Origin: Ulota crispa
Taxonomy: Eukaryota; Streptophyta; Bryopsida; Orthotrichales; Orthotrichaceae
Assembly (NCBI GenBank): GCA_963920765.1
Contig: OY987248.1
Coordinates: 9,458,539-9,522,538 of the forward strand
Length of the DNA: 64,000 bases
Direction of reading: 5' to 3'
The position numbers and the translations under genes were made by a program. This document shows, in pieces, positions 1,809-46,553 of the stretch (its first letter is position 1; each line of letters begins with the position of its first letter). The notes beneath the pieces are model-generated. The model saw only the letters and a list, made by a program, of their open reading frames with translations. It was not told the DNA's origin and did no database searches.

Positions 1809-2183
1809 CCCTAAACGTCGAGGAGGACGTTTTTTTTTGTTCTTTGGCTCTGGAAAATCATTTTGTATGACAGGAAAAAGCCATTTTTCATCTGGTTTTT
1901 TTGTAGAAGTGATCGTTATAACATGGTCCATTGTGGAAGGAAAAAAAAAAAAAAAACTCATCAAATACATTCATTTTTAGGCAACTCAAATTGTGAGAAG
2001 ATTCACAAACACGGTATTAGGCCCCCATATTGTCCTTGCAAATTTCATGAGGTTAGTATGTACTATTGACTTTTGTAATTTTTGGAAACAATATTATAGA
2101 GGTTAGGCACTTACCACACCAATAACAACACTAGATAACATTGTAGGTAGGTTGGTTGCGGTGACCAGCTTGGCATTTAAGGG
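1809..2183. mobile_element. TTAA-flanked short element (375 bp)
   Basis: TTAA at 1805-1808 and 2184-2187 brackets an element that begins CCCTAAACGTC and ends GGCATTTAAGGG, an imperfect terminal inverted repeat. The interior is related to the element at 20600-20960: both contain a GAAGTGATC block, a T/GGAAGG-A-rich block and CAAATTGTGAGAAGAT. The right TTAA is also the left flank of the next element. It has no coding capacity and belongs to the TTAA/CCCCTAAA group. Confidence 0.75.
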
Positions 2184-2187
2184 TTAA

Positions 2188-3605
2188 CCCCTAAATGCTT
2201 TAGGGCACTTTTCTCAATTAAAGATAGCATTTTTGAGGTTTTGGAACTCTCCTTGTAAGATCATTATTAACCCCTAAAGGTCCAAGCCCTTTTTCTTGTG
2301 AAGCCATTGGAAAATGCCATTTTGGGGGGAAAGAGTAGAAAGATAGAAAAAGAAAGTCTTTTTTTGAAAATCCAACCATAGGATCTTGATCTAGACTATG
2401 GAAGATACTTGTCGGAAAAAATTAGCTCATTTCAAATTAGGAGTGAGGTACTAACATCTAAAGGGAAGAGAACAGTTTTTTTTCTTGGTGCCTAAAACTC
2501 TCAAAAGCCTTTGACCACTCTTATAGCAAAATAAATTGCTCTACACAAAGTTGAGGTTTAATTTCTCCATGCAGAAGACCAAGTTAGGTATGTCTCAAAG
2601 AATTTTCAAATGAATTCCAGTTGTGCGACATACTTCAAAAATCTTTGAATGCAAGAAGGTCATCAAATTTGCAATTACACTAGGCAAAATTGGAGGATTT
2701 ATGTAAAATTCAAGAACCTGAATTACTCTAATCCAAATTGTGAAGGAGGAGGAATGTTAGTCTACTACAACTTAGGAAAAATAAAAAACAAAATACAAAT
2801 ACACAAATTGCTCAAAAAAATAGAGTACCAAATTTTACAAGAGGCAAAAGGAATGGGGGGTTGGGAGGCTCCCAAAAAGGGCACTTTCCACTCCACTACC
2901 CTTCGCCCAAGTGTTCACTCTTTTTGCCCATGAGGGCTGACCCTCTTTGGAGTCAACACCCACTTACAAAGAAGAGGCCATGCCTAAATTGCCCCTTCTT
3001 GCCTAGTTTCAAAAAATCCTTAATAGCTTCTTCATCAAATGTCAGAATGAAGAAAAAAAATTAGATGCATGTGTAGGTCTTGAAATTCTCCACCTCTAGT
3101 AAAAGCTTCAAAAAATCACAAAATATAATTTAGCTACAAGTACAAGCCCAAAATCCATTTGTCCCCAAAGAAGACAATTGGACCTTTAGGGGTTAAACAC
3201 TAAAACAAAAATGTAATTGTAGGATCTTGAACTTCAAAAACTTTAAATTGTGTTGCCTAAAAAGTTCTAGAAAAGCTATGGAGATTTTAAGGACATCTGT
3301 GATTGAATGTGGATGAGTATGGAATGTTCTAGTTTTTTTGGAGCCGCCCAAAACTTTCTTGCAAAAATGGCAATTTTTGAGTACAAAATTGGGAAACAAC
3401 CACATAATGATTTAGTACTTCTTGTTGTTACTTCAAAACTAATGACTCCCTTTCCAAATCTATTATCATAGTTTCACAAATGAGCTTGCAATGCAAGTGA
3501 CAAAGAGCTACCACTTAATAAAAAGAAAATATTTAGCTCCAATTATTGCCTAGAAATCATTATGGATGAAAGATAACTTAATGGTGAATGAATCCAATTA
3601 GTACA
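2188..3605. mobile_element. TTAA-type element, interrupted by a nested element
   Basis: It starts at a TTAA (2184-2187) with CCCCTAAATGC. Its sequence is paralogous to 61862-62340, for example in the words TTGTAAGATCATTATT before and ATCTTGAACTT after the interruption, and in later blocks such as TGGAGCC and AGCTCCAATTATT. Bases 2271-3192 are a second element inserted into it. The right end was not found: similarity to the paralogue fades near 3605. Confidence 0.6.
2271..3192 (+). mobile_element. TTAA-flanked element, 922 bp, perfect 15-bp ends
   Basis: Flanked by TTAA at 2267-2270 and 3193-3196. The terminal inverted repeat is CCCCTAAAGGTCCAA at both ends. It is nested in the element starting at 2188. 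The paralogue at 61862 has the matching site without this insert, and removal of the insert plus one TTAA restores the same length. Related copies are at 19239-20161 and, inverted, at 33308-34252. No long open frame is present, so it is non-autonomous. The ends (CCC next to a duplicated TTAA) are those expected of the piggyBac superfamily, but there is no transposase to confirm this. Confidence 0.85.
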
Positions 3606-3911
3606 GTGGAGGTACAGCAAGTATACTAACACCATATTATGCCATTCAAGAAGTTTTACTTAGCATAGAGTATAAATGGTAACTTTGTTGTCTTGCATCA
3701 TTGATATTAGACTACTCTTACAAAATCCCGATTAGGCATACCAAATTTCAGTTCCTAAAAACCAAAATCCCATTTTTGATGCATTATTTTGTATAAAATT
3801 CATGATTTTACGTGATTTTTGATTGATCAACATTGGTGATTTTAGAGATTTGATTTCATGGGTGTGTAGGATAAACCCATATGCTCATCTTCTATACTAA
3901 AACCAATCCCT
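3606..3911. other. AT-rich DNA without recognisable feature
   Basis: About 300 bp between two TTAA-type elements. It may include the unrecognised right part of the element that starts at 2188. No coding signal was seen. Confidence 0.5.
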
Positions 3912-3915
3912 TTAA

Positions 3916-4800
3916 CCCCTAAAGAATCATTTGTCCCATTGGGGGACAAATGGGAATTTGGATAGGGTCATGCTACTACAATTTATGAACAAATTCTATA
4001 GATTTTCCCTCCAAAGGCAAAGTTTTGCAAGAGTTACGTGGGAGAACAATTTTTACTGAAATCCAATTCACAATTCAAAATTTATAAGGGTAAACATGTG
4101 AGTTTTAGACTTTTAGTTGGAGGGGCAATTTGGGCATGCATTTTTTGTTGACTTCTCCCTAGGGGAACCAATGAAGAGATGACCTTTCATTGGAATATCC
4201 TAAGCAATAGGGTACTAAATAAATACATTATTGTACTTGTTGAATACATTAACTTTGAATTGCAATAGCTACTAGAGATTTGGTTTTTCTTCCAATTTTC
4301 TTTTTTGTGACTGTCATAAAGCTGAGCTCTTCCAATCTATTGCTTAGATTCTCATTTTCTCTAATATATCTTTAGAAAGCTTGGTTGGTAGAAAACCTCG
4401 GTGTAGTGTGAATTTCAAGCACATGTTTGCAATGCAAGGCCATAGAGGGTGTGTTCCATGTCTTCGTTGGTCACAAAAACTTGTAGAGATATGCCTAATG
4501 TGATTTGGAACATGCTAGACAAATCTCTTTAGCACCTATAGTGCAAAAATTGTTCACCACATGTGGTCAAAGGCACTTGACAATTTTGGGCATGGATAAA
4601 AAATAATAATGTACTTCCTTTAGATGATTATATCTTTCAATCTGTACGGTCAAGCTTCACAAGATTTTCATGGTATGTTCTTGAAAGAGTATACTACTGT
4701 ATCCTATGGTTAGATTTGAAGAATTAATTTTGGGATCAGACCACTAGAAATGACTGTTTTAAATGTTTTTTGAGAAAAAATGTGCTTGATCCTTTTGGGG
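3916..4800 (-). mobile_element. TTAA-flanked element, 885 bp
   Basis: TTAA at 3912-3915 and 4801-4804. The ends are CCCCTAAAGAATCA and, inverted, CCCCAAAAGGATCA, 12 of 14 matching. The left end carries GGGGGACAAATGG, which resembles the right end of the 922-bp element at 2271-3192 read in reverse, so it may be an inverted relative. Its right TTAA is shared with the next element. Confidence 0.75.
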
Positions 4801-4804
4801 TTAA

Positions 4805-5045
4805 CCCCTCAGCCCCTAGGCCATATTCACTCAAATCCATACCCTTGTGTACTTAGTCCAATAAAAGTATTACCTAAATAGAGTCAAATAGCTTGAATTT
4901 TTTTTGAGTGGTAGTAGACACATGCCTAGAGGTACATGAAAAATTACAAGTCCTTTCACTTTACTATTAAGAAGAGGATAAGAGTCAAACATGGACATTT
5001 TTCAAAATTGAGCAACCACATAGTGGTTGCTGGGGCGCTCAGGGG
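4805..5045. mobile_element. TTAA-flanked element, 241 bp
   Basis: TTAA at 4801-4804 and 5046-5049. The ends are CCCCTCAGCCCC and, inverted, CCCCTGAGCGCCCC. It is the smallest member of the group in this window and abuts the 885-bp element with a single shared TTAA. Confidence 0.65.
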
Positions 5046-5383
5046 TTAAGTAACAAAAATATGACTTACTAAGGATTTAGTGTAATGTGTGATATCCCCA
5101 AATTTTGTAAACAATATATTTTTATTTTTTGACTAGTTTTTCACCAAGCAAACACAATGTCATATTCAAAGATACAAACTTATTCACAATATTTGAGTCA
5201 AACACAAAATTTGGTTATCATAAAGAAATGAAGCACAATGCCCATTATAAAATCCAACTATACCAAAAACACCTCTACTAATTCAAACATCAGGATAAGC
5301 AAAACATGGAGTCATATTCACATGTAGAATAATACAGAACCATCATACTAATGAAAAAAAGTCATGTTAATCTTCTTTCTATA

Positions 5384-5560
5384 ATAGAACAAGGTGTTCA
5401 TATGTACGTATTAGTTAAGAGGGGGTTGCATGGTAAAATTGCACATGGGCCATGGGGGCATGCATGGGGCCATGGGGGGCTTATATAAATATAATAGAAC
5501 AAGGTGATAAAATTGCACATGAACCATGGGGGGCATGCATGGGGCCATGGGGGGGTGATA
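5384..5560. repeat. Direct duplication with G-rich CATGGGG core
   Basis: Two related blocks (about 5384-5482 and 5485-5560) share ATAATAGAACAAGGTG, TAAAATTGCACATG and a core of GGCATGCATGGGGCCATGG. G-rich sequence stands out from the AT-rich surroundings. The rest of 5046-5627 shows no feature. Confidence 0.6.
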
Positions 5561-5627
5561 AAAATAATCATAAAAAGTTTTTAGATTGATATCTCACATG
5601 TCATACATTAAAAAAACAATTAAAAAA

Positions 5628-6039
5628 GGGAATTGATATGTGCACATTAGGGGTTCATATTTGCACACCCCCTTGGGAGGTAAATTATAGGTTTCTACCA
5701 TCAAAAATTTGAATCTGAGAATTTTGAATTCAGATTTGGACTTAGAGACCGTGGTTTACTCTAGAATCATAGAAAAGTTTGCAATTGAACAACACCCAAT
5801 GAAAAGATTATCATTTTTTACAAACAAAAGTAAAAGTAACACTTTTTCCCCTAGCTAAGTTTTTTCATTGAGTGTTGTTTAATTGCAACTTTTTTTTAAG
5901 GTTCTAGAGTAAACCATGATCTCTAACTCCAAATCTGAATTCAAAATTCTCAAATTCAACTTTTGGATGGTAGAAATCTACAATTTACCTCCCAGGGGAT
6001 GTGCAAATATCAACCCCTGGTGTGCACATATCAATTCCC
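5628..6039. mobile_element. Foldback MITE, 412 bp, 9-bp target duplication
   Basis: The two halves are inverted copies of each other over nearly their whole length: GGGAATTGATATGTGCAC at the left and its complement at the right. Inner stem words include TAGAAATC/GATTTCTA and CAACACCCAATGA with its complement. It is flanked by ATTAAAAAA (5619-5627) and TTTAAAAAA (6040-6048), an 8/9 match. A second copy is at 28366-28774. The G-starting ends and 9-bp duplication fit a Mutator-like non-autonomous element. Confidence 0.8.
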
Positions 6040-8536: not shown

Positions 8537-11367
8537 TTATGCAACACTTTGTACCGCCCTCTCAAAAGCAGCTTCACCGGCACCAGCACGCTCCACAAGC
8601 ACATGATTTGGCTGTGTTATCTTCAATTGGCTGGTAACACAACCACAACACAGATGAGAACTAACGCTATAACACTTCCCTTTCTCCCGAAGATCCATCC
8701 GTAGAAACAAAACATGATGGTTCATTTACAAATCTATAGAGCAAGAAAATCTCATTCACAAATCTGAGCAAGAAAAATCTACCAGGACACAGACATGCAC
8801 TACTAAATAAACTGAATGGGCTCTGGAGCCACTCATTCACCTCAGATATCGTCCAGTTGCCTTGCTCAGGTGCAGATTGCACACGATCAGATTAGCAAGT
8901 GTGTTGGCGTCCTTCGGATCCTACAAATCAAAGCCAATGTGACCCAGCCATATTCGAATCAATATGACTACTGCAACCATCAAACACTGAACCGTGAATC
9001 AAAGCAGCAAAATACCAAAACCTCCATCCAATGAGTGTAGCTTAAACTTGTACTTACGAATGACAAAGAGCAATAGCACTCGGCCTATCACCAGGAATGA
9101 CGTACGAAAACAAAGAAGATGTCCCAGATAAAGGCAGCAGTCTGGAGGACGCAGCAAGGCAAGTAAGATACTGCTAAGACGACAACCTCCTCCAAGAGAG
9201 TAACTCCTGTTGATTACTACACTTGCGTACCACTTACCTTGTTCAGGGCCTCCAACAGCCGGGACTCTGCCTCTTCGAATTGGCCCATGTGCATTTGACA
9301 AACCGCACTGCCATTCATCAGCATAACTGTCCACGTGTACTTTTCACACAGCTCTTGGAAAATGTAGAATGCCTCCTGCACCTTAGCGCCACCCTAAGCA
9401 AACCGACAGGAGAAACTTCCATCTCAGTAAAGCACCAATGCTCGGCACAAAACATGAATCGCATACCAATTCAGAGGTGTTAGGCTCAAGTCTACGTGAT
9501 CACCTCACAGATACAATACGAATTTGGGATAATCATCGCTGAAAGTGAACTCATACAAGACAAGGAACTCAACAAACAGCATAAAAATCAACGAGTCTTA
9601 CCAATGAGAGGTTCACCCATGCATTCGCCAACTGTGTGAGGGTATGATCCTCGTCAATCTGTTGCATGATCTTCAGTTGCTTCTCCGCATAATCTGCTCG
9701 GTACATCTTCGAGTAGATCTGTACATTCAGGGCGCACCTGCAAACATACAGCAACACCTGGACTCAGACCCATGCACGTGACCAACTCCCACTGATCCAC
9801 AACAGCAGACGGAACAACTCTTTGGATCGAAACGCGATCCCCAGTCTATTGCCATCGGCTACGCAAGGACGACCCTGAGTCCAATGCCTGATCTCCTCCT
9901 TTCACATTATTCAAAGATCTTTCACTATAAACTGAACTCGTCAGGTAGCCACGAGGCCATCCAATGATAATTCCTACAAGACAGGTCATTGACAAAAGCC
10001 AATCTGAACGCCTCCAAGACAAAGAATCCAGCCAGTCTGGAACAGGTCAAACACGAAGCACGGTGCTAAAAATACTAACACCAGCACCGACACTGTGTCG
10101 GAGCATGGCGCAAATTCCCCTAATCACGTCAAGGAGCGGCTGGCTTGGTCACTTACAAATCGAGAGTACCGCCGACGTGAGTGTGCTTCAGAGCTTCGTT
10201 GTAGTTTTGTTCGTGCGTGTAGATCATGCCGGCAACCATCAACAGCGTGGGGTTGCTTGAAACAGCCGGGTCAGATAACCACTCCGACAAGCCAGACAAA
10301 GCCTGGTCCTGGAAACAGAAAGCCGGGAGGGACAGAAGAATCATCCAAACAAATCAGTTTCCGATTCTTGCCCCACGTAAACAGACATTGGACAGACATT
10401 GGAGCTACATGAGATGCATCGTAACGCAGACCAATGACAAGCTACACACGAGTGAATTTCTCGAAGTGATTAAACACGCTGGAACTCGTGAACGGTGTTT
10501 ACCTTCTGATCTCCCCCAGACAGGTACAATGCGAGGAGTTTCACAGCTTGGAGCGCTGTTGGAGCAGCATCGCTGATTTCGTTGATGACCAGCTGATGCA
10601 CCAGCCAGTGTCACATGTGTCAGAGGGTTGTCACGTCACCAAAATCTCACGCAATGTTCAAACGACTGCCAATGAGCCATATATCTACAAAACCTAGGGT
10701 TTGGATGAGTCTCCTCTCATTTCCGTACACACACGAATGACCCGAGAGAAAAAGTCAGACCTTAGATGCGCGAGACAGCATCATCGCCATACTGCAGAAA
10801 TTCCTCAACCAATGAAGATCGCCGTGGATCCGTCGACGCGGAATAGGAATTAGAAGTGTGCCATCGGTTCTGAATCAACCGATGGAAGCTAACAAACTAG
10901 TTGCAACAAATTGAGCCAAATGTCGTTTCGGCAAGTAACATCAGAGATGAGCTCATTGTGGCAGCAGCACTAGATACGAGATGCAGTCAGGAGCGACACA
11001 TCCCGGTTCTCGACTTCCCGCTGCGGTAGACAATTCAGATCGCTAAACAAAGACAAGGTCGAAATCCAAGATCCATCGAGAAGAGTTTATGGAAAATCTT
11101 CTGGAATCGGACAGGGAATAAGAAACGGAGAGACATGCCGGGGTGTAAATATTCCTGTTCGGAGGTGGAGAAGAAAAAGGGGCGCGGGGATGACTGACTG
11201 ACCTGGTGCTGGCCGAGCGCAATGTAGGAGCGGTAGACGAAGGTGTCCTTCTCCGCGGCGTCGGCGTCGCTCAAGGAGCGCAGCACGGTGCTGTCGTTGA
11301 TGGCGGCCTGGAAGGCGCCCAGGTAGAAGTTGTTCCGCACAGAGAACAGCACATCGGGCCCGCTCAT
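8537..11367 (-). CDS. Coatomer subunit epsilon (epsilon-COP)
   Basis: Epsilon-COP is part of the COPI coat that drives Golgi-to-ER and intra-Golgi vesicle budding; it stabilises alpha-COP. Seven exons were read on the minus strand: 11203-11367, 10503-10592, 10157-10308, 9602-9737, 9238-9393, 8841-8920 and 8537-8630. They sum to 873 nt, 290 residues, the usual length. All junctions are GT-AG and keep frame. Recognisable blocks are NNFYLGAFQAAIN near the start, NYNEALKHTH, RADYAEKQLKIMQQIDEDHT and a C-terminus ending FERAVQSVA, all hallmarks of the plant family. The family folds as TPR-like helices. The start is the ATG giving MSGPDVLF. The leader just upstream is G-rich (11382-11418). A Stowaway-like element begins 282 bp upstream of the ATG. 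Confidence 0.96.
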
Positions 11368-11381
11368 CGTGGCTGAAAGCG

Positions 11382-11418
11382 CCCCCCCTGGATCCACCTC
11401 CCTGCCTCCCTCCCTGCC
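11382..11418 (-). promoter_or_regulatory. G-rich leader of epsilon-COP, possible RNA G-quadruplex
   Basis: On the coding strand the region has G-runs in the order GGG-A-GGG-AGGCA-GGG, then a spacer, then seven G, ending about 15 nt before the start codon. Four runs of three or more G with loops of 1, 5 and about 11 nt fit a loose quadruplex pattern. That the region is transcribed is inferred from its position. Confidence 0.4.
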
Positions 11419-11649
11419 TTTCTCCTTCTCCGCTTCTGGCTCCTCTTCCTGGTTCTGTTGTCCGTGTGTGCTGTGGCGACGAGGGCTCGGTGGACGTGGT
11501 GGATCGCGAGCTTCGTGTAGTGTGGCTTGCGTCGAGAGTGTGGGTGATTAGGTCAGTGGGAAGCAAAGAGGAGAGATGAGAGTGCAAGCAAGCCTTGACA
11601 CACCAGCAACCCCGACCACACCAATTACTGCGAGGGCTGCAATCATATA

Positions 11650-15240: not shown

Positions 15241-15241
15241 A

Positions 15242-15242
<1 letters not shown>

Positions 15243-19238: not shown

Positions 19239-20161
19239 AAGCCCAAGCCCTTTTTCCCAATGAAAGTCATTGCTAACTGCCACTTTGGGGGGAATGAGTA
19301 GAAAAGTATGAAAAACAATTAGTTTTGGAAATCCAACCATAAAATCTTGCCCTAGACTATGGGAGGTACTTGTGGGAAAAAATCAAGTCATTCTAGATGT
19401 AGAGGAGGAAGATATTTACATCTAAGGTGAAGGGAAAAGGTTTTTTTCCTTGCTACTAGTAAATTTTAGAAGCCTTTGACCACTGTTACATGAAAAAAAT
19501 TACTCTACACAAAGTTGAGGTTAATTTTTTCCATGTAGAAGACCAAGTTAGGTATGTGTGTGAGAATTTTCAAATCAATTGGAACTATACAACACATGGG
19601 GGAAAATAGTGAGTAAAAAGAAGTAGAGAATGAGTCAAATCACTAAATTGTTAAGAATTTAATGATTAAATGAAAAATGCAAATCCTAATTGTATAATGT
19701 TGTAATAACCAATCTATTTCTTTAGGTTTAGTTTTTTTCCAAAATGTGAAAAATTATGGAAAATAAAGGACTTCAAAGTTTATTTTAGAGTAGAGGATCC
19801 ATAATTGCCTACAAACTAAAACATCTCATAATTTTCATCTCATCGATTGAAGTTGAAAGATTCAAAGTTTCCCACATATGAAAAAAATCTAAACAATGCA
19901 ATTCAGATTTCTATTTTTAGAAAATTCAAAATTTTTACAAGTTTTTGGGTTGCCCAGATTGCCCTCCCTCCCTCGGGCAGCAGAAATTATTGCATATCTT
20001 CTTTGTCAAATGTCAGAATGACAAAAAAAAAAGATTCCCGCATACGTCTTGGAATTCCCCACCTTCAATAAAAGTTTAAAAAGATCACAAAAACTAGATT
20101 AGCTATAGGTACATGCCCAAAATCCATTTGTCCCCCAAGGGGATAGCTGGGCCTTTCGGGG
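19239..20161 (+). mobile_element. TTAA-type element, decayed left end
   Basis: Homologous to the 922-bp element at 2271-3192, as seen in CCAAGCCCTTTTTC near the left, AGACCAAGTTAGGTATGTGT inside and AAAATCCATTTGTCCCC near the right. The right end GGGCCTTTCGGGG is followed by TTAA (20162-20165). The first bases of the left inverted repeat are lost. It is non-coding. Confidence 0.75.
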
Positions 20162-20599: not shown

Positions 20600-20960
20600 C
20601 CCCTAAACGTCCAAAAAGACATTTTTTGTCCTTTGCCTCTGAAAAAACTTTCTATATGGTAGAAGAAAGTAGATTTTCATTTGATTTTTTCCCAGAAGTG
20701 ATCATAAACACATGCTCTATCATGGAAGGCAAAAAATAACTTCATCAAATACACTCATATTTTTAAACAATCCAAATTGTGAGAAGATCCATATTGCCCT
20801 TCCTACAATTTTTGTGAGGTCAACTTACACTATTCACTTTTGCAGCTAGCTAGGCACTTGTTACACCAATCATAGTTTGCATAAATCTTTGAAATCTTTG
20901 AAAAACACTGTAGAAGTCATGCAGCAAGCTGGCCACGAGAATGAGTCCGACGTTTAAGAG
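20600..20960. mobile_element. TTAA-flanked element, 361 bp
   Basis: TTAA at 20596-20599 and 20961-20964. The ends are CCCCTAAACGTCC and, inverted, CTCTTAAACGTCG. The interior is related to 1809-2183. It is non-coding. Confidence 0.75.
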
Positions 20961-22919: not shown

Positions 22920-25900
22920 CAACTCACTGCAGCGCTCAGCTCACCACTGACGCATCGTCCGAGCAACGCCCATTCCGTCACTCACTCGAAAACCGAATCT
23001 CTGTCTCCCATTCCCAAACTCACCTGGATGCGAACCACCACCACGGCTCCACTCTTCACGAACAGCAACTTCTTCCTTATAGGCTTCTTTGTTTTCGGGT
23101 CTATCTGATGAATCAGACCCATGATCTCGCACTCCTCCACGATGGAGTGGATGTGTAGCACCGCTTTGTATCCCGCCGTAAAAATCGCCTGCAACCATGA
23201 CAGTGTTCGTCATTTCAGAACTAAACGGCTTCAAAGTACCCTGCCATACTACAAACCAAAAATCCCAGCGAATCCGCTCTCGCCGCTTCCCAAACAAACA
23301 AACAAAATTCACCACCACTCAGTAGACGCTCATACCGGCTCACAACGGACTCTCTGGATCAGCCAGATATAACAATCACGGCACAAACTCTCCTCACAGA
23401 CAAGCCTGTATTCAACGCTCCCCCTCATCCCCCGTCCATCACAACATCCATACATGCACCCACAAACGTACCTTGTGATCCAACAGCTCAAGAATCTGCA
23501 GCTGGGCATCGAACTCCAGTACCGCAGGAATCGGCTTATCTGCACATCCCACAAAACGTGCTTCAGCTCGCCGGACAACGTTCCTGCGACCAACTCCCGT
23601 CTCCAAAACCACCAAATCGTGAAGCCACGATACCGGATACTTACTCACGGATGAAAGCACGAACCCTGGAATGATTTCCTCCTCCTCCACCCCCGATATC
23701 CTGATCCGTAGATTTTCCCCGGGCTTCGCATAATTCACTTCATCGTTGTCCCGGTACACCGTCACCACCTTTACCAAGGCCTGCACATCGTCCACATCCA
23801 CTCGTCATCCACACCGCTGCGCCCTCTGCCACATAATCCCCCGCTCAACCGCGTCCCTCAACGGGCCACCGCATCCAACACGCGGATCCGACTCGACTGC
23901 CCAAAAGCCTTGACCTCGCCTACACAACCAACTCACCTTGTTCGGCATAACCATCAACGAGTCCCCTCGTCGCACGCTCCCGGACTCTATCTTGCCCATC
24001 ACCACCGTACCCATGTCCCTCGACTTATCTATTATCGGCATCCTGCACACATACCACGTCCGCATCGTATCGTCAGTACGCCTCCATACCGACACTCGCA
24101 CTGCGCAAAGCCTGCACGAAACTCTTCCTCCACGACCCATAGCTCACAGCACCTCACGACCATCTACCTGAAACAACCCTTCGGGTCTCGCAACGGCAGC
24201 TCCACGGCATCCAAAGCATCGAAAAGGCAAGGACCGTCCCACCACGAGCACACATCCTTCGCCATGCCTTCCTTCATGTTGTGTCCCAGCAGCCCAGATA
24301 TCGGCAAGAACTGAACATCTGCGGAGTGCATCGTCGCAACACACGGATTCAGATGCCCACGCGCCACACACTTTCCCATCCATTTCCGCTTCCCTAACAC
24401 CAAGACGAAGCATCCAAACACAACGAAGAAACCCAAGCAAAGCGTTCACGTGCCTTTCTTCGTATTGTAGCCGCATGACTTCAGAAATGGGACGATCTTC
24501 TTCTCGATGTCGTCGAACCTGCAAACCACAATCCAGCGCCTCCAACATTACCATATGAAATCAATAAACACTTCAAACGACACCACCAGATAACATCGAC
24601 CCTCATTCTTTCTTCAAACCATCTGTCGCACGAATGCATCTAGCATACACCAAATACACTACAACTCGTCGGCATATGCGCTCCACTCAGATCTGACACG
24701 GCGGCCGCTCTCTCTCGTTCCCTCCAGCCTTCACAAACAGAACCAAACCACAAACCCTACCTCTCCTTCGAATACTCCACGGACGGATCGTCCATCTTGT
24801 TCACTACCACCAGTAACTTGGAAACGCCCAACGTCTTCGCAAGCTGTGCATGCTCCCGAGTCTGCCCTCCTCGCTCGAACCCAGTCTCGAACTCCCCTTT
24901 CCGAGCCGAAATTACCTGACATGTGCAAACAACTTCCAATCTCAGGTCCGATCATCCATCAACATACAAAACCACAACTTGGATCCACCGGCAATTCACA
25001 GAATACCGACCAACCCGCCCGGGTTCATTCTCCTCACCAGCACGCCAACGTCTGCCTGTGATGCACCGCTTATCATGTTCGGGACGTAATTCTTGTGGCC
25101 CTGCACAACACCAAATTCCACACCTCACTTCACCTTTCCAACATCTTCGACAAAACAACCTTCCATATATCACCCACAAGCTGCACACCAGCGCCCGTCA
25201 TCTGCCGGTACACATTTGCCTACTCCCCACGTGCCTCCCCTCTACCATCCGAACGACGAAACGTGCTTTCGCGACCAGCTCAACACACGTCACCCATGAA
25301 CGACTCCTGATGACGTCTGGCACTTCGACCAGAATTCTGAGTGTGCTCGACAACATCCATCTCTGCGACGAACGTGCCCATCGCGCCCTTTCATCGACCA
25401 TGACTACCATCTACACCACACTGTCCTCCTCACTGGTCGTGCCAAACTCAAACAGATCCCCTCTACGATGTGATGGCATCCTTACAGGCGCATCCAACAC
25501 CGTGAATCGCGTCTTCTCTGTCTCGAAATGAGCCCTTCCAACTTCCACGGTCTTGCCCTGTATCCCCACCAAACCCGTCAGACGCGCAAACCACCAACAC
25601 TCCCAACGGCATGCCAAGAACCAAAAACGACCCGGTCCCAAGGGGCACCCACAACAGGCCAACCTCCACACTCCTATGCAACCAGCGTTTACAGTACAGC
25701 TCGGAATCACTCGAAACAAATCCAGCAACACGTCCCCTACTCAAAACGACATCACACGTCATCCATGTAAAACAATCCATCCGTCCCTTTCCGATCGTAA
25801 AAGGTCGCACTCGCTAAACCCTACGCCTACTCAAACTGTACACACGCACTGGTCGGCTTTCATTCACAGAGATGGTCAACAACCTTTGCCCTCTCTTCTT

Positions 25901-27464
25901 CGTTGGTGTCCATGATGTACGCCATATACCTGCAACATGCCCCATCCACATTTACCACATCAGAATATCTGCTTCAGCAGTGACGGCTACTTCAACATAC
26001 TTCTGGTTCCACTTTTCCAGCTGCTACGATAAACCACGAACCGAACTCCGCTTCCCAAGTGACAGAACGCAATCTAAGAAAAATAAATATATTGGTTCTG
26101 GAACGATCACTCGCCAACTGTCTCTGTTCTTCTCTTTCGCCTCTCGTTCGAACTTCTGGATCGTACGATCGTCCACCATGCCGCTCAGGTACAATATCTG
26201 ACCTCCGATCGTTGACTTCCCCGCATCTGCACACACAGCTCCGCTTCAGATCATCGTTCACCATCAAACACGCAGATCAAATCCCACCCGTAACGTCAGG
26301 TGAAGTGAACTAACGACACGGTTTCTGAGAGCCAATCCTTCGCGCGAAAACTTCTCCACACTCAAATCCCGCTCGAGTTCCTACACTTCAGCTAAACCAA
26401 GCGAAACAAGTCGCACTAACAGGTCTTCCACTGAACAGAACTCAAAGCAAATGACGGAATCCCTACCCACGTGACCAATGAAAACTACGTTTAGATGCTG
26501 CCGAGGATCATCGTCCTCCTCCGGAGCCTCCTCTTCCACGGCTGCTGCATGGGGAGCCGATGCCTCTACCACGGCCGGCGGTTCGGGATCGGAATGCTCG
26601 GGGGCCGCCGCCTTCTCTTCCTCCTCCACCTCACCCTGCTTCGGTTCATCGCTCAAATTCAGTTTCTCCTCCACCTCCGTTGCAATCGGCTCGGGATCAG
26701 CCTGCGATCATGTAATCAACACAAGAATGCGCAAAACAGCATTCGTTCAGCAAACCAGGGGTGAGACCATACCAATGCCTCACATGACACAATCGTCCAA
26801 GCCAGACAGGTAAATCACCTGCTTCGCCTCCGATTCCTCCGCCTTCGCGTTCAAAAGTTTCCCCGGAACGAACTCGGCGCTCGCTGCATTCAGCGTTGAA
26901 AATGCGGGTTTTGGAGCCTCCAGTATCTTGTCGTCGTGCTCCCAGTCCTGATCCGCAGACGACTCCTGCTCACCAACATTATCAAAAATTAGGTCATCCA
27001 AGAAAACCCTAAATTGAAGTCAATCCGCAATACTCTCTTCCAACTCATGCAAGAAGCTATACACTCTGGAAAGATCAACAACTTCAATCATCAAGCGCCA
27101 CTACTGAACAATCTACTCTACTTTCAACAAAAGAAATCAATTCAAAAAGATTCACACGCGCAAAACAGAGAGACAACAGCAGTAAAAACCTAAATTGAAG
27201 TCAATCTGCAATACTTTCTTCCAACTCAAGCAAGAAGCTATACACTATCGAAACTTCAACAAATTCAACCGACAAGCACCACTACTGAACAATCTACTCC
27301 ACTTTCAACCAAATCAAAAAGATTCATACGCGCAAAACAGACAACAGCAATAGTGAACAGGATGTAACGCCTTGGAAGTTTGAAATTCTTATGAAACGAG
27401 AAAGGGAGAGAGAGAGAGAGAGAGAGAGAGAGGAGTGATGACGTACTTGCGTGAGGTCCGACAT
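22591..27464 (-). CDS. ERF3: Eukaryotic peptide chain release factor GTPase subunit eRF3
   Basis: eRF3 binds eRF1 and uses GTP hydrolysis to drive stop-codon peptide release in the cytosol. Sixteen minus-strand exons: 27447-27464, 26819-26965, 26467-26701, 26115-26226, 25884-25929, 25486-25557, 25038-25100, 24761-24915, 24454-24518, 24168-24318, 23937-24042, 23645-23780, 23472-23539, 23024-23188, 22785-22857 and 22591-22655. The total is 1677 nt, 558 residues. Order: a PAM2-like poly(A)-binding-protein motif at about 29-40 ([12 protein letters not shown]), an acidic linker, then G1 GHVDAGKST (131-139), G3 DAPGH (208-212), G4 NKMD (270-273), [11 protein letters not shown], and the C-terminal beta-barrels ending GRFTLRD...[10 protein letters not shown]. 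Without the longer eRF3 N-terminal region and PAM2 it could be HBS1, but the C-terminus and PAM2 favour eRF3. Introns 4 and 9 use GC donors. Intron 1 holds a tandem duplication and a CT repeat. Confidence 0.96.
27011..27352. repeat. Tandem duplication (~180-bp unit) in eRF3 intron 1
   Basis: Bases from about 27011 and from about 27192 repeat the same block: AAATTGAAGTCAATC, CTTCCAACTCA, GCAAGAAGCTATACACT, CACTACTGAACAATCTACTC and GCGCAAAACAGA, with modest divergence. It lies wholly in intron 1, close to the promoter. Confidence 0.85.
27404..27433 (-). repeat. (GA/CT)n tract next to eRF3 intron 1 donor
   Basis: An uninterrupted GA run on the plus strand, read as CT repeats in the transcript 12-14 nt downstream of the first 5' splice site. 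CT microsatellites are common near plant transcription starts and may affect expression; that role is inference. Confidence 0.9.
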
Positions 27465-33307: not shown

Positions 33308-34252
33308 CCCTTAGAGGCCCAAGTGTCCCCTCATAGAACATATGGATTTAGCTAAATCAACTTGTGTAACTTAATGAAATTTTTGATGAAGGTAAAGAGT
33401 TTAAAAATCTATGTGGGTATATAATTTTTTCTTCATTTTGATATTTGACAAAGAATTTATGCAAAAATTCCCAAACTAGGAGAGAAGAGGCAATCTGGAC
33501 AAGGCCTCTTCTTTGGAAGTGGGAGTTAATTCCAAAAAGGGTCAGCCCTTATGAGCACAAGGTGTGTACACTTAGACGAAGAGGAGTGGAGTGGAAGGGA
33601 CCTATTTTGGGGGACACCCAACCCTCCATTTCTTTTGCCCCTTGTAAAGTTTGGTATTTTAATTTTTTGAGCAATTTGAGTCTTTGTTTTTTGATCATTT
33701 TTTTTCCAAATTTCTTAATTTTCACCATTTGGATCAAAGTAATTTAGATTCATAAATATTAAATAAACCATAAATATTAAATAAACCATAAATATTAAAT
33801 AAATCCTCAAATTAATTTAGATTCATAAATATTAAATAAATCCTCAAATTTTGCTTGCTATATTTGCAAATTCATGACCTTCTAGTATTCAAAGATTTTT
33901 TGAAATATATTGTACACCTCCAATTCATTGGAAAATTCTCCCACACATACGTAACTTGATTTTCTACATGGGACACTTAAACCTCGACCTTGTGTGTAAA
34001 GCAACTTTTTTGCTATAAGAGTGTTAAAAAGGCTTCTGAAATTTTTTGAGTACGAAGGAAAAATACTTTTTTCTTCTCGTAAGATGTCGACATCTCCCTC
34101 CTCTCCATCCCTTTTATTCCCCACAAGTACCTCAACCTCAAAATAACCTCATGTAGTATGGGGCAAGATCCTACGATTGGACTTTCCAAAAAAAAAAGAA
34201 GAATCTACCTTTCTTCAAGTGGCAGTTTTCAGTGACGTTTGGCCTTCAGGGG
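33308..34252 (-). mobile_element. TTAA-type element, 945 bp, inverted copy
   Basis: Homologous in reverse to 2271-3192, for example CCTTGTAAAGTTTGGTATTTT and TTGAGCAATTTGAGTC. The right end GGCCTTCAGGGG is followed by TTAA (34253-34256). The left flank is TTGA, one change from TTAA, before CCCTTAGAGGCCC. A short AT-rich tandem array (TAAATATTAAATAAACC units) lies inside at about 33745-33850. Confidence 0.7.
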
Positions 34253-34578
34253 TTAAAGACCAACGTGAGTTTCAGTAAAATCCACCCGGAAGTAATACCA
34301 ATAAACTGTCAGAAAAGCCACAATTAAATGATGGCGATGACATCTCAAACAAAAAACTTCAATTCAATGACTACAGGACTCGTCTAGAAGAGCCTTCTTC
34401 ACATTGTTTCCTTTTCGTTCGAGTCAAATAAAATAAACACCCGTGGCCGTGAAAGAGTGAAGTAACCATCTTCATTCTCGATTCCTCAAGAATGATATGA
34501 TACCTCATGGAAAATCAGATGTTAACCTGTTCCCAATTTCTGATTTAATACAACCTTACATACATACAGACTACGAGG

Positions 34579-38841: not shown

Positions 38842-39162
38842 GGGAAAATTTGATGAATGCCCTTGAAGTTTGTGATATTTGTATAGATGCCCATAATTTT
38901 TCAAAAATTGCTCTAATATCCGTGGACTATAATTTTTGGGATTTATTTTTTGTGCTAGTCACTTCCTCCATGACCACTGTTGAAAAAGGGAGTACAATGG
39001 AACAAAAAAAAAAACATGTGCACAAAAGAAGAAGGAAGTGGCATGTACAACAAAACAAACAATTGAAAATTATGGTCCAAGGGTATGTGTGCATTTTTGA
39101 AAAACCAAAGGTATCTTTACAAATATAATTGCAAAATTCAAGGTTATCCATCAAATTTTTCC
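38842..39162. mobile_element. Foldback MITE with GGGAAAATTT ends
   Basis: GGGAAAATTTGATGAATGCC at the left pairs with GGATAACCTTGAATTTTG-type complement at the right over about 100 bp. It is the same family as 60688-60997. Flanking duplication is not clear here. Confidence 0.7.
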
Positions 39163-39579
39163 TATAGAGTAGTACAACATAATATATAAAAATAACCGAT
39201 GTAACTCAATGAAAATATGCAAATGGAAAATGCTAGATTTTAGCTAGTGAAGTCAAAAATTTCTTCCTAAATGTTGCTTTGGATTGTCTTTCATCCCACA
39301 TGATTCTTGGCCCCATCCAAGTACATTCAAATTGGAACTTTGAACTTGAAGTGTAAAAAATGGACTATTCCCTGGAAAATGAAGTTTTGAATTTTTGATT
39401 TACAGCTAGACATTGAATTGCAAACCTTATGGGCCCAAAGTGAGTCCAACAACCCTATCCTACTGTAGTTGTGACTTGAAGGTAATTTAAAAACATTGAA
39501 GTCCAATCGTATTGGACAACCAATAAGCACTTGTTTAACAATCACTTTGAAAGTTATCATGATATTGGATACTCATTAA

Positions 39580-40513
39580 CCCCTAAAGGCCCAAACAGTG
39601 TTTTTTGGCAACATAGTGATTTTGGGCAGCTCACTACAAATGGATTTTCCATTTGTTTCTTTGAAATTTTCACACATGAATGTTTCCAAGGAGTAGCTTT
39701 AAGGCCCAACAAATGTCATAACTTTTGATTTCATGATTCAAAAGTTATTGCATGATATGTAGTTTTCTTTGTTTGGGGGCAGCCCGGGTAGCTCAAAAAA
39801 CTTTTTTTAAAATTACATTTTTTGACTTTTGTTTTTTGAAATTGGTTCTTTAGATATATATATTCTTGGGAAGCTTTGAATCATTCAGTTTTCATCAATG
39901 AGATGAAAGCTGTGAGGAGATTATGTTTGCGGGCAGTTTTGGATTTCCTACTCTAAAAAAAACTTTTAAGTCTTATGTTTTACTCAATTTTTAATATTTT
40001 GGAAAAAAAATAAAGCCAAAGTATGTAGGTTGTTTATTACAACATTTCAACCATTGGGATTGGAATTTTTGTTTTACGTAATTAAATTCTTAACAATTTA
40101 GTGTTTTGTATCATTCTCTACTTTTTTTTACTTATTGTTTTTTTCCTATGTGTTATACATTTCCAAATAATTTGAAAATTTTCAAATGTGTATGTGACTT
40201 GCCTTGAAGAATGAATACAAAAAATTACAAGCATTTTGAAACTTTTTTCATACAAATATGACCTTGTGAAGTGCAAGTGCCCGGATTTTTGCAAGGACAA
40301 AAATCAACTTTTTGTCAATTCAAACTCAATCACCTAACAATCCACATGGCAAAAAATTCTGAATTTTTTTCCACATTTTTGGATACTAATGTACTACAAG
40401 ATCTTATGGTTAAATGTGTCCAAAAATCAATTTTATCTAAAATTTGATACTTGCACTACAAATGGCAGTTTTGGGACAATTTTGATGAATACATAGTCAA
40501 TGGCCTTTAGGGG
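39580..40513 (+). mobile_element. TTAA-flanked element, 934 bp
   Basis: TTAA at 39576-39579 and 40514-40517. The terminal repeat CCCCTAAAGGCC is perfect at both ends. The interior is not obviously the same as 2271-3192 although the length is near equal, so it may be a sister subfamily. No open frame of note. Confidence 0.85.
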
Positions 40514-40948
40514 TTAAAGTTTATGAATGTCACTTGCTTGCGTATACAAAAAAATGCTTAATTTGACATTGATTTTTCATACGATCTTTTAACTTTGGAT
40601 TATTTCATGTGGTTAGGAATTTTTTTTATATGAACCATCCCCAATTTATGTAAAAAAAAGGGGCAAAGGAAGACACTCATGCATGTTTTATATTGCAAAA
40701 AATGTCCTCTCTCATAAATAACAAAACCGGCTGCTCCCTCCATTTTGGTATATGTAGACAACATTTATGCCAATATGTGTCTTTTTGTGCAAATAATATA
40801 TTCGAAGTAGACGTTAATTCATAAATTTTCAAACAAAACTTGTATGTTTTTGTATACAAATTGGCCAAATCTATATATAAATACATAAATAACAAACATG
40901 TACCTTCTAATTAATATAATTTGCTTCTACTCAATGTTATGGCTTATA

Positions 40949-41300
40949 CTCCCTCTGCCCAAAATGATCTTTCTGTTGATCTTTATTTAGTATCCTAAAA
41001 TGATCTTCTTGTTGGAGGAAGGGAGCTAGCAATACTTGCACAATCCAAAAACATGGACATGCTAAGCAATTGCATGCCATCAAGTGAGTGGCCACCAGTG
41101 CTCTTCAAAAATGCCTCAAAAATTCAATTTTCAAGCACTTTGAAACCACTTTTTGAAAACTAATTTGAAACTCAAAATTTTAGAATAGTAGGAGGACATC
41201 AAACTCTATTCATAGGTCCAAAAAATTTGAAAAAGGATTCTTTTTGAGCTTAATCTTTAACATTTTGTGTAACAAGAAAATCATTTTGGGGCGGAGGGAA
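40949..41300. mobile_element. Stowaway-like MITE, 352 bp, compact copy
   Basis: TA at 40947-40948 and 41301-41302. The ends CTCCCTCTGCCCAAAATGA and, inverted, TTCCCTCCGCCCCAAAATGA match the Stowaway consensus. It serves as the uninterrupted reference for the split copy at 11650-13208. Confidence 0.85.
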
Positions 41301-41302
41301 TA

Positions 41303-42331
41303 TCATTTAGATGCATTAAATAGGTAAATTGTAGGTAACTTTAGGTAATTCTTTTATGTTTTTAAACCAATTGAAATGTAGATATTGTTAACTACAACAT
41401 ATTAATTAGACTAAGATTGGCTTTACATTACAAGTCAAGGTTGATTTCTAGCATTTGACACCCTCAACATTTGGTTTTGATTGGTTATTTTAGGACTTAC
41501 CGTCAAATTTTTAAAATATGTTTTAATATTTAAATGACACAACCCCAACTTTAGAAATTGGGTTTTTGTAAATGGGAAGTTAATTCTCGGCCTTGGAGAC
41601 ATTGTTACATGTATTATAAAAATATAGTTATTTGAACAAAAACATTCTTTTGAGGTAATTAACAACATAGGATGGAATAAATTAATAGTGATTCTCCTTG
41701 GTCTCTATGTTTAATCTCTTTTCTCTTGAAAATTTCAAAGCTTTCTCTAGTGCCCTCAATTATTTGGGTGTAAGAGCTTTACCAAGAGCTTATACACAAG
41801 AGAATTGGCTCTAGTTATACTCTCATATTATATTGGGCACTTGGGGTTGTTCCCAAGGCCATTTGGGCTAAAATTTTGGTTAAAACAACCCCAAGTTTTC
41901 ATGACCTTATCTCTTAGTGTAAAGCATCCCTAGGGCACTTGCAGCCATGGCATAGTGCCTTTGGCCTTAGCTCATTAATGAGGTGATCATGAACTCAAAT
42001 GCAGGCATTGACAAGGTACTTATCATTATAAGATGCCCAATTATGGTGAGAGGTCAAATGACCTTGTTATCACATGGGGACTTGAGAATTCTTGAAGACA
42101 AAACATGCTTGTTCTTTATAGGGTCTACCTATTAATGAAAACTTCACCAATAAAACTTGCAATCTAGGTTCAAGAGGCTCAAATAGTTGAACCATTCCCA
42201 ACAAATGCTTCATTTGTATTGGTTTTCAAAACTAAAGTTAACCTTCTTCATAAAATTAATTTTGATTATTGCTTTACACAATAAATACTTTATATTGTGT
42301 TTCCTTAGTATGTAGGATTTTAGTTTTTTTT
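41303..42331. other. AT-rich intergenic DNA, nothing recognised
   Basis: Single-copy in the window by eye. Short open frames only, no domain. Confidence 0.5.
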
Positions 42332-42803
42332 GGAGAAATTACAAACAGGGGCACAAAAACAAAAAAATAATACAGATGATTGAGATAAGGGCACACTTTC
42401 AAAATAATTAAAGATTGAGACACATTTTCAAGACCCCTTTACTAAAATTTTCTTATTTAGGCTTGATTTGGAGAGGCCTTTAGATTTTTGGAAGCTAGCT
42501 AACATTCAATGTAAAGTATCTGAATCAACTAATGTTCAAACCAAACTTTTACAAGATACTACAATTTTTTTTGATACTATGCACCTATCTATATATTTTT
42601 TGAAATTGTGCCCCTAGTTGTAATTATTTTGAAACTCTGCTCCTAATTGTAGTTATTTGAAACTATGCCCCTAGTCGTGATTATTTTGACATTATGACTC
42701 TTGTTGTAATTATTTTGAAACGATGCCCCTAGTTGTAATTATTTTGAAACTGTGCCCCTATCTATAATATTTTTATTTTTGAGTCCCTATTTGTGATTTC
42801 CCC
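42332..42803. mobile_element. Foldback element with GGRGAAATTACAAA ends
   Basis: Left GGAGAAATTACAAACAGGGGC and right GTCCCTATTTGTGATTTCCCC are inverted. The right half contains five copies of a block reading GCCCCTAGTTGTAATTATTTTGAAAC with changes, so the arm itself is a tandem array. The same family is at 49669-50411 inside a proteasome gene intron. Confidence 0.7.
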
Positions 42804-43185
42804 TGCTTTTTTGGTGCCCAGTCGGCATGAAGAAGGAGGTCGGCACTTCAACTTCCTTGTTATCCAAGTTTACTAAAACAATTAATTAATAGAAAGTATT
42901 CCACTGCACATGCATTTATACAAAACGCGTCAGTGACTGTACGAATGAATGAAATGCGTCATTACATGGATGAATAAATACAAGCCTTTCTGCATTCATC
43001 CATTCCAGTGGTCTCTTCCCATGCCAGGCTTCGTCCTGGTTCGGACGACAGAGGTTTCTACAGAGCCAGAGCCTTTTTGCGACAAGGGACTCGAATCACG
43101 TCGACGCCATCGCCCGATCACTCGAGCTTGCCGTAAGCTGCAAAACTCAACTGGTTGTGAAGATTTCAATTTAGAGTTGGCAATA
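42804..43185. promoter_or_regulatory. Upstream region of VPS60
   Basis: GC-richer from about 42990, consistent with a leader. The reading frame of the first exon stays open upstream to 42949, but the family start is at 43186, so the extension is treated as untranslated. Confidence 0.45.
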
Positions 43186-45245
43186 ATGAGGCGCGTTTTT
43201 GGAGTGAAGAAGGAGAAGGCGCCGGCGCCAACGGTGGAGGAAGCGACTCAAAGGGTTAGTTATTTTGGATTTTTAGCTCTTTTGAAAGCGAGTTGAATAA
43301 GAATTGGAATTAGAAATGAAATATACGGAGTTGTTTATGTGTAGAGCTAGAGGTGACAAGGGGATTGGATGGTATGGCGTGGGCAGATTAATAAAAGGGG
43401 CGATACAATTGATGAGAAAATAAAGAAGCTGGATGGGGAGCTGTTTAGGTACCGGGAGCAGATCAAGAAGACACGGCCAGGCCCAGCGCAAGAGGCCATC
43501 AAAGCCCGTGCTATGCGAATTTTAAAGCAAAAAAAGATGTAATTTTTTTAACTGTTGCGTACTTTACTCTGTTTCATGTTTTTTCAAAAAGAATCTGTTC
43601 GTAATTTCGCATAGAATTGCGGTAACTGAGGTGGTTTGGAGGATTTTGAGATTAGGAGTTTTGTTGATCACAAGCGTTTTTGAGATGACTAGAGTTTACC
43701 GACTGGCTTTTTTAGTTTTGTGAAGTCCAACAGGCACTCGATTGGCGATGAAAAGAGTTTCAGGGAAATTAGGGTTTCTGGTTGGAGTGCAGAGTGAATG
43801 GCCTTGGGATTTCAGTTCTTATGTGTGGAATGTATTTTGAAATGTCTTTACTTGGCAGGTATGAAGGTCAACGGGATCAAATTTATAGTCAAACTTTTAA
43901 CCTGGAGCAAGTTTCTTTTGCAACAGAAGGACTCAAGGATGCTCAGCAAACGGTGCGATATAAGTATTTTTTTGTCTTCGTGCTCTAACTATGTGATTTT
44001 CTCATGGCAAGGATCAGGTCAATGTAAACCCTAAAAGACGAAATTGCATTTTTCTCTCTTTTTTGTCCTTCTACATTTGAGTGGGTCATATGGTGGATTT
44101 ATCTAGGTCATTATTGCTTGTTTTTAACAAACATGTGAATTGTAGTTCACGGACTCTGATGATATAAAATCTGGCCTTGTCTGAGTTTTATTTTTCACTT
44201 TGTTATCAACCAGAGTCACAGTATATAATTCACGATATACTGGTCTTTTGGGTTATAGTGAACTTATTTTCATTTCTCTGTAGACCTCATTAGGACACGG
44301 AATATAGCCGATAAGAGTACGTTGGATAGGAGCTTTTAATATTCATGCAATTATTGCAATTGTTTGAGTTTGTGGTACTTTGCCTGTGCAGATGTCAGCC
44401 ATGAAAGCCGCGAACAAGGATTTGAAGGGAACCATGAAAACTCTCAAGATTGATGATATCGATGTGCGTCTCTGCACTCAATTGTTTTTGGTGTTAATCC
44501 TTTTTGTTTCAGGACTGGAGTTGAAGAAATACAAGCATCACGAGAGATTTACGGTGTGCTACATTTCTGCCATGTCCAAAGTTACTCACGAATTACTTGT
44601 GAACTTTTTACTGCAGAAAATGCAAGACGAAATGATAGACTTAGTCGACTACAGCTCGGAAATCCAGGAGACGCTTGGTCGCAGCTATGGTGTGCCTGAT
44701 GATCTTGATGAAGAGGAACTCATGGGAGGTATAACATCTTTCTTCTAGTGGTTTTGAATTGAGAGTTCATAACTTCTTACATTGATGGTTTCCATTTGTA
44801 AGGTCCAAGAGGGATACTCATTTTGGCGGTAATATCCATGGAACAGAGTTGGATGCTTTGGAAGCCGACATGGGGTTGGAGACAGAATCAGACGGGGTTC
44901 CATCCTATTTGCAAGATGAGCCGGAAGTGGAGTCCGACATTAACTTACCTGCCGCTCCCTCTGGTCATTCAGCTCAGCCACAGGTTAGTATCTTTTTAAA
45001 GTACGATGGATTGGACAAGTACAAAGTTTCATTAAGCTCAGATTCCATAACCACCTTTTGGATATTTGAGGGTACTAGTATCAGTATATTCTCCATATTT
45101 TTTGGAGTAACTATGAATACCAGGATTTTTTTCTGTGCATTTAGAAAAATTTCAAAAATTATTATTGACAATGCATGATCATTTTGAACAGGCTGCAGAT
45201 GAGTATGGCTTTCCAACAGTTCCAAGAGCATCAATACGAACGTAA
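43186..45245 (+). CDS. VPS60: ESCRT-III-associated protein VPS60 (CHMP5)
   Basis: VPS60/CHMP5 is an ESCRT-III-like protein that works with VTA1/LIP5 and the VPS4 ATPase on multivesicular bodies. Seven exons: 43186-43254, 43387-43538, 43859-43952, 44392-44463, 44617-44728, 44847-44983 and 45192-45245. They total 690 nt, 229 residues, typical length. Conserved: MRRVFGVKK at the basic N-terminus, KKTRPGPAQEAIKARAMRIL, QKKMYEGQRDQIYSQTFNLE, EIQETLGRSYGVPDDLDEE and ELDALEADM, then an acidic C-terminal tail ending VPRASIRT. All introns are GT-AG. Intron 4 is 153 nt, divisible by three and free of in-frame stops, so its retention would insert 51 residues. The start was chosen by family fit over an open upstream extension. 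Confidence 0.97.
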
Positions 45246-46054
45246 TATGTTCGGTTCAAGCTGGAATTCAGTAAGCAGTTCAATATTACAACCCCATATG
45301 GTATTGTTTGGAGCTCATATTTGTCATTCAAGGACACTTGAGATGACAAAGTTGAGAATGGTAAATTCATAATTTCACGTGCATACGTTACGAAGTCTTC
45401 GTGTGTTGATAGCACCCCACATTCTTCTTTGATTGGACTCATGATCCTGTTGGTACTAGTACGTTAAATTTGTGTACTTTAGTAACAGCATTGGATAGAT
45501 CTGTGACTGTATATCAAATTGATTAGTAAGTGATTGAAACGGTTGCTAAATGACGTGCTCATAATAGCAGTTGTTGATTGTAAGGTGAATACATCAGTAA
45601 TTAATTTTTGTTGACACCCACTTAACACTTTGCATTGAGTAAAATGCCCTGACAATGGAGTGGACGGACGCACGAGGTTTCAAATCATGTCCTGGCATTT
45701 AGGTCATGGCTACTCTGAAAGTAGGATATGTTCAGTTAAGTTGGAAAATATACACAGCAGTTGAAATGTGGAAAAGATCGCAACGCAGAAGTTACGTCAC
45801 TGGGGTGTTAGTGTCGGTTGCTTCATAGTTTCCTAACGAGTTCACAAATCTTTGTATGGTCAGATTTCCATGTTGGATTGTAAGGATAATGCCCTTTTTG
45901 GAGGGGCTAGACCTTGTAATAAAGAAATTACGTTTGAAAGATAAACTGCATTCCACTTTGGTTTATGATGTTTGCAGTCTTGTAGAGTTACGTGTAAATT
46001 TCTCAAGTTGAAAATTTTGGTATTGCAAGTGCTACAAAAGTGTTCCCATTTTAA
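45246..46054. other. 3' flank of VPS60
   Basis: Contains the presumed 3' untranslated region and unassigned DNA. No further exon or repeat was seen. Confidence 0.5.
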
Positions 46055-46553
46055 CCCCTGAATGCCCGAGGCACCAAATTTTGGTGTTGTCAGTACTAAC
46101 TTAACTAAGGTAGATGTCATTGTCATTTTAGAACTATTCTTTTTGAAGTTAAGTTTTAGCATAAAAAATCTGATTCTCAAACACACTAGATTTTGGAGAA
46201 AAATTTACACTAGAAATTCATTTTAAAAAACTGTAGAAAAGATTTTGAAAAGCCGTAAAGTGATTGGAGTTATTGTATGTTATGTCCTTTAATCTTATAC
46301 TTTTTTGGTGACCAATTTTTTAAAATCTACATGTGAAATGAGGATTGAAAAATTTCAAGTCATTTTTGCAATTTTAACACCCTTATGGTCAAACATTAAT
46401 CTTTCAATCTGTAAGTGATATTGTTGTGTTTTCTTTTTCTATGTGATCTTTAACACATCTAATTTAAATTTGTACGGTTGTAGTTTAAAAAAACTTGATA
46501 CAGCTTATTAAAATGTTTTCCGAAGCTCAAAAAAGGCTTCAGGCATTTAGGTG
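46055..46553. mobile_element. TTAA-flanked element, 499 bp
   Basis: TTAA at 46051-46054 and 46554-46557. The ends CCCCTGAATGCC and, inverted, CACCTAAATGCC match at 10 of 12. It is non-coding. Confidence 0.7.

Follow-up and report, generated by a model that had tools for sequence, protein, structure and literature searches.

Probable piggyBac-type MITEs inserted at TTAA, and resident piggyBac transposases, in the genome of a probable land plant

The short repeats described here are very probably non-autonomous members of the piggyBac superfamily (piggyBac-type MITEs), which a DDD transposase from another locus of the genome would have moved into TTAA sites. The assignment to this superfamily is well supported: the elements have four-base TTAA flanks, the genome holds copies of the piggyBac transposase domain (PF13843), and the readable right ends of transposase-bearing elements consist of TTAA followed by CCC-type repeats. 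The reading of the elements as piggyBac-type MITEs, which formed the core of the original prediction, is therefore upheld. That prediction was made from one window, the whole stretch of 64,000 nucleotides analysed, which lies on contig C7 of a genome searched here over 274.8 Mb in 157 contigs.

Nine elements and their borders in the window

On reading each copy, all nine predicted elements were found where they had been placed, with lengths of 241-945 bp; the coordinates given below are those of the forward strand. TTAA had been described as a nearly constant border and is present at 17 of the 18 flanks, the sole other flank being the TTGA to the left of 33308, so that eight of the nine copies have TTAA on both sides. 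The ends are of the CCC type as claimed, with C as the first base at 17 of 18 ends; the exception is AAGCCC at the decayed left end of the copy at 19239. The exact sequence CCCCTAAA occurs nine times in the window and adjoins TTAA in seven of these cases.

The first copy (1809-2183, 375 bp) lies between TTAA at 1805-1808 and 2184-2187, has the ends CCCTAAACGTCG and CCCTTAAATGCC, and is related (73% over 199 bp) to the copy at 20600-20960 (361 bp), which has TTAA on both sides and the ends CCCCTAAACGTCC and CTCTTAAACGTCG. The TTAA at 2184-2187 is common to the first copy and to an abutting element from 2188. This is an older repeat (2188-3593, right limit approximate) which starts TTAA-CCCCTAAATGCTTTAGGG and whose homology to L001, L019 and position 61859 of the window can be traced to about 3593. 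It is split by the copy at 2271-3192 (922 bp; TTAA at 2267-2270 and 3193-3196), which has a perfect 15-bp terminal inverted repeat, CCCCTAAAGGTCCAA. Two further copies are related to the latter, one of 923 bp (19239-20161) with TTAA on both sides and the right end CCCCGAAAGGCCC, and one of 945 bp (33308-34252) with TTAA at its right flank.

A single TTAA at 4801-4804 is likewise common to two copies, as had been noted for both this junction and that at 2184-2187. To its left is the copy at 3916-4800 (885 bp; left TTAA at 3912-3915; ends CCCCTAAAGAATC and CCCCAAAAGGATC), which matches L019:8097-8974 with 82% identity over 896 bp, and to its right the copy at 4805-5045 (241 bp; right TTAA at 5046-5049; ends CCCCTCAGCCCC and CCCCTGAGCGCC). 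The two together sit within another repeat, which continues beyond 5049. The other copies, at 39580-40513 (934 bp; ends CCCCTAAAGGCCCAA and CCCCTAAAGGCCATT; 80% over 921 bp to L025:4063-4966) and 46055-46553 (499 bp; ends CCCCTGAATGCCC and CACCTAAATGCCT), both have TTAA on both sides. A relaxed scan gave one possible extra element of 169 bp (52508-52676, forward strand), a weak candidate with no second copy in the own-genome DNA compared.

The ends contain CCCTAAA, which we take to resemble the plant telomere repeat, and non-mobile satellite-like or telomere-derived sequence could be envisaged as their source. The end repeat extends, however, to CCCCTAAAGGMCCAAG, which is not telomeric, and the copies are dispersed, their ends are inverted and bordered by TTAA, and empty paralogous sites exist for some of the insertions. 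With this insertion anatomy we reject a satellite or telomeric origin, which we hold to be extremely improbable.

With respect to the rest of the window, Rfam gave no matches at gathering scores. Pieces of ordinary genes are found at 11035-11544 on the reverse strand (coatomer epsilon subunit) and at 44368-44745 on the forward strand (a Snf7-domain protein). Long overlapping frames on both strands are clustered at 22941-26201, and a Pfam scan of two frames of this cluster, 23712-24311 and 24920-25528, gave no match.

Abundance and target site across the genome

The sequence TTAACCCCTAAA occurs 30,972 times in the genome (15,477 forward and 15,495 reverse), as against 77 times (41 and 36) for the reversed pattern, and TTAACCCCTAAAGGNCCAA occurs 6,596 times, with none for its control. 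Exact ends have a mean density of about 113 per Mb over the genome and of 67 per Mb over the contiguous 164 kb that include the window, where 13 paired elements total 11.9 kb or around 7%; by extrapolation the share of the genome would be near 10%.

Pairing of ends was carried out in a 264-kb set made up of the window and L009-L028 (200 kb of own-genome sequence, of which the 100 kb of L019-L028 were picked for their richness in ends). When ends were paired under relaxed conditions, 58 elements of 169 to 3,759 bp were obtained, whose lengths peak near 205, 640-770 and 880-950 bp. Nested outer and inner pairs are both included, so that some elements overlap, and some pairs may be mismatched. 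The interiors fall into clusters of 37, 5, 2 and 2 elements with 12 singletons, in agreement with the predicted subfamilies, and the mean identity within the largest cluster is 78%. The elements are thus short, present in high copy number and non-coding, as judged against piggyBac fragments and frame lists, with inverted ends and a target duplication, as expected of MITEs.

Among the paired elements, six of 58 abut another with one shared TTAA; the junction at 2184-2187 is not one of these because its partner element was not paired. Genome-wide there are 335 exact back-to-back junctions (TTTAGGGGTTAACCCCTAAA) and none for the control, where about 155 would be expected if left and right borders were distributed independently over TTAA sites, the number of which was extrapolated from 164 kb. 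The excess of about twofold may come from local clustering or duplication.

The target site was investigated through the constancy of its four bases. In the 264 kb, a search allowing up to three mismatches to CCCCTAAAGGMCCAAG found 93 ends, of which 80 are directly preceded by TTAA, and each single base of the TTAA is correct in 86-87 of the 93; the reversed control gave three matches, none with TTAA. With the pattern CCC[CT][AT].A..G.CC the corresponding number is 59 of 68, while its control gave one match and no TTAA. For the whole genome, ends with the 15 bases of CCCCTAAAGGNCCAA exact were counted where they had either the full TTAA, which was seen in 6,596, or one changed base. Changes at the outer T make up 315 of 6,911 ends (4.6%), those at the inner A 239 of 6,835 (3.5%).

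These numbers bear on whether the source might instead be a Tc1/mariner-like element that duplicates TA, has true ends ACCCC...GGGGT and merely prefers TTAA. The borders can indeed be parsed in this way, as TTAA-CCCC...GGGG-TTAA may be read as T-TA-ACCCC...GGGGT-TA-A, and an empty site with a single TTAA is compatible with both readings. Duplication of TA would, however, leave the outer T free and place the inner A within the element, yet the two are changed at nearly equal rates, the outer T being kept in 6,596 of 6,911 ends. As the constraint on the outer base is about the same as that on the inner one, the data fit duplication of TTAA rather than of TA with a loose preference, and the TA-duplicating source, which we consider very unlikely, was rejected. 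The flanks thus behave as proposed for a piggyBac-type element, with constraint at all four positions.

Empty sites were sought by comparing the joined flanks of the 58 paired elements with sampled own-genome DNA, and uninterrupted paralogous sites spanning the junction were found for six of them, five of which were examined as alignments. The clearest case is the pair at 3916-4800 and 4805-5045, for which paralogous sites with one TTAA and no element were found: in L004 and at two places in L009 the sequence left of 3912 runs through a single TTAA into that right of 5049, and both elements are absent. In L023 the left part of the 3916 site runs up to TTAA, after which a relative of the element at 4805 begins. 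When the copy at 2271-3192 is removed together with one TTAA, six paralogous places align to the joined flanks with no gap where these meet; two of the six lie in L021 and have identical scores. The gap at the junction is one base for L025_4063 (six of seven matches shown) and three bases for L020_6701, and the junction matches of L027_3243 may represent just the end of a neighbouring element. TTAA itself is still readable at one of the six empty sites of 2271-3192, shifted by one base, and elsewhere at two of six, one of one (L020_6701), none of one (L013_3422) and one of one (the window site at 3916, in L023).

The flanks, the base constraint and the single-TTAA empty sites all point to a TTAA target-site duplication, and the terminal inverted repeats are of about 13-16 bp and begin CCC or CCY, both being features of piggyBac elements. 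By analogy with known piggyBac elements, the DDD transposase, supplied from another locus, would bind the terminal repeats of roughly 13 bp (CCCCTAAAGGMCC), excise the MITE and insert it at a TTAA, which would be duplicated. The TTAA flanking an older copy could then be re-used as a new target, and such an insertion would give rise to abutting copies with one shared TTAA.

An element pair in opposite orientation was observed at L021:1916-2835 and L021:8800-9719. Inverted pairs with equal or nearly equal scores were also seen amongst the transposases (C7:18203169/18223004, C2:36765124/36779670 and C10:676128/785346). Pair members are separated by about 7 to 109 kb, and these arrangements suggest that local stretches were duplicated in inverted form, either in the genome or in its assembly.

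Resident transposases and the ends of their elements

The genome carries many copies of the piggyBac DDE_Tnp_1_7 domain. A profile search with PF13843 gave 120 matches (116 scored of 527 candidates), all over the cut-off and with a best E of 1.3e-73; none of the 14 control genomes gave a match. Stop codons are present in 110 of the 120. Three of five frames from L041 and L042 match PF13843 (E 8e-60, 1.2e-25 and 5.6e-32). The L042 frame of 476 amino acids also matches the solved piggyBac transposase 6x67 (E 4.1e-20), with the first two acidic blocks of which its own align, and piggyBat 9c0f (E 5.8e-17). Blocks of the types T.DE,.DNFF and GVD..DQ, which we take to be the DDD transposase motifs, are all present in six of 15 loci (L029, L031, L032, L034, L039 and L041) and partially present in others; in L042 and L037 the third block is GVN.

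The cysteine-rich C-terminal motif of piggyBac transposases was found in eight of 14 transposase loci, while a ninth match, in L042, was discounted as its frame holds stops. With one such domain as query, 150 matches were obtained with E up to 0.053 (150 of 183 candidates scored), some places being counted twice. These results on the domain refer to the resident transposases. In the window and L001-L028, 288 kb in all, a tblastn search with 101 stop-to-stop fragments at E 1e-3 detected no piece of a transposase.

The original prediction called for a search for a larger copy that combines the MITE ends with a transposase. Where they could be read, the right ends of the transposase-bearing elements are of the TTAA and CCC type, as in CCCCTTAGGGCCC compared with CCCCTAAAGGMCC for the MITEs, but none of the right ends read is an exact CCCCTAAAGG end. 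The best-defined ends are those of the L043 family, where homology between copies stops at TTAA in three cases, with CCCCTTAGGGCCCC in L043, CCCTTTAGGGCCCC in L045 and CCCCTTAGGACCCC in L046, all of the CCCCTTAGGGCCC type; a fourth copy, L044, has kept the end and lost the TTAA. The right end of L043 is alike to the MITE repeat at 11 of 13 positions without being identical, and since its exact 21-mer occurs once genome-wide it heads no large family. Between L029 and L038 a similarity of 90% ends within one base of TTAA, with the inner end CCCTTCATTGCC. For L048, L050 and L052 the shared sequence, which stops at TTAA, is limited to 26-29 bp (CCCCAAAACAACC, CCCCAAAACGTCC and CCCCAGAACATCC), and the right ends of L048-L052 are mostly CCCCARAACNNCC. 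Others were set only by TTAA and CC at the expected distance, namely CCCTTCACCGCC (L034), CCCTTGCATGACC (L041), CCCTTTAGCGACC (L042), CCCCAGAACGACC (L049) and CCCTAGAATGTCC (L051), while L047 and L053 have no readable right end.

In the 1.5-kb flanks of 12 transposase loci the only candidate for a CCCCTAAA end was a weak 6-of-8 match in L040, which was not accepted. L041 has a CCCCTAAACGTCC end at 5762, beyond the limits of the transposase element there, whose own end is apparently CCCTTGCATGACC. Neither L043-type nor CCCCANAANGNCC-type ends were seen in the MITE-rich 264 kb, and no pairing of exact MITE ends with cysteine-rich domains was seen by eye among the matches listed, the first 100 places of the MITE end, which reach 12.8 Mb of contig C1 in one listing and 3.2 Mb in another. 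Also in L041, a stretch of 17 or more C (G on the opposite strand) near 4562-4578 separates the transposase frames from the element's right end.

The right ends lie about 1.1-1.7 kb beyond the cysteine-rich domain, and the sequence upstream of the DDE domain, read for up to 2.4 kb, showed no left end. Pattern searches for matching left ends, made for the elements in L029 and in L042, gave 14 and 3 places, with none in the controls, and none of these pairs with the known right ends. With such distant right ends and no left end met, whole elements are perhaps larger than insect piggyBac elements, given as 2.07-3.52 kb in the available parts of PMC12732532 and PMC10140906, unless left ends were missed.

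A further explanation is that the MITEs derive from another TTAA-duplicating superfamily, either Kolobok or Sola3, the latter being presumably a candidate of this kind, and that the resident piggyBac genes are coincidental. It would account for the lack of a piggyBac transposase with exact MITE ends among the loci read, and Kolobok likewise duplicates TTAA; its termini, however, are 5'-RR in the available part of PMC9587614, whereas those of the MITEs are 5'-CC. The resident piggyBac elements carry TTAA and CCC-type right ends resembling the MITE repeat. The ends thus disfavour a Kolobok or Sola origin, and we regard this explanation as improbable. The MITE end CCCCTAAAGGMCC represents a further variant of the layout seen at the ends of the transposase elements. 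It would seem that one resident transposase family, present or past, mobilised the MITEs, and this partner may be one of the families with unread ends or one that has decayed.

Relation to known systems and to the host

The elements resemble the piggyBac superfamily (T. ni piggyBac, piggyBat) and its MITEs in their TTAA duplication and in terminal repeats that start CCC, and the resident DDE_Tnp_1_7 transposases do so in their DDD-type motifs and C-terminal cysteine-rich domain. They differ from usual piggyBac elements in that the host is probably a land plant and in the great abundance of the MITE family. piggyBac is best known from animals. The Stowaway and Emigrant (TA) and Tourist (TWA) MITEs of plants are also short, abundant and without genes, with inverted ends; their target duplication and terminal sequence differ. 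No piggyBac MITE family of a land plant was found among the matches listed in a mostly open-access literature. The nearest of these was a repeat table for the fern Ceratopteris, the accessible part of which gives 1,230 PiggyBac fragments, amounting to 0.00% of the assembly (PMC6890710); plants are treated in general terms in the available parts of PMC12732532 and PMC10140906.

It is an evenly balanced question whether we see here a land-plant lineage with a long-established and diversified piggyBac, in which many transposase families have ends of about CCC[CT][AT]NANNGNCC and one of these families, whether surviving or lost, gave rise to tens of thousands of MITEs that tended to land in TTAA beside earlier copies. 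In this genome piggyBac would be a large component with many transposase families, in a probable land plant, so that old vertical inheritance and horizontal transfer of plant piggyBac become testable against one another. The resident copies are also a possible source of plant-native TTAA-specific transposases.

Judged by its NAC genes, the host is probably a land plant. These genes are a streptophyte family, a low number of which is typical of bryophyte-grade plants. NAC (NAM) domains were found at 13 places in the genome, at 12 of which the domain is broken into two parts; the 14 control genomes gave no match.
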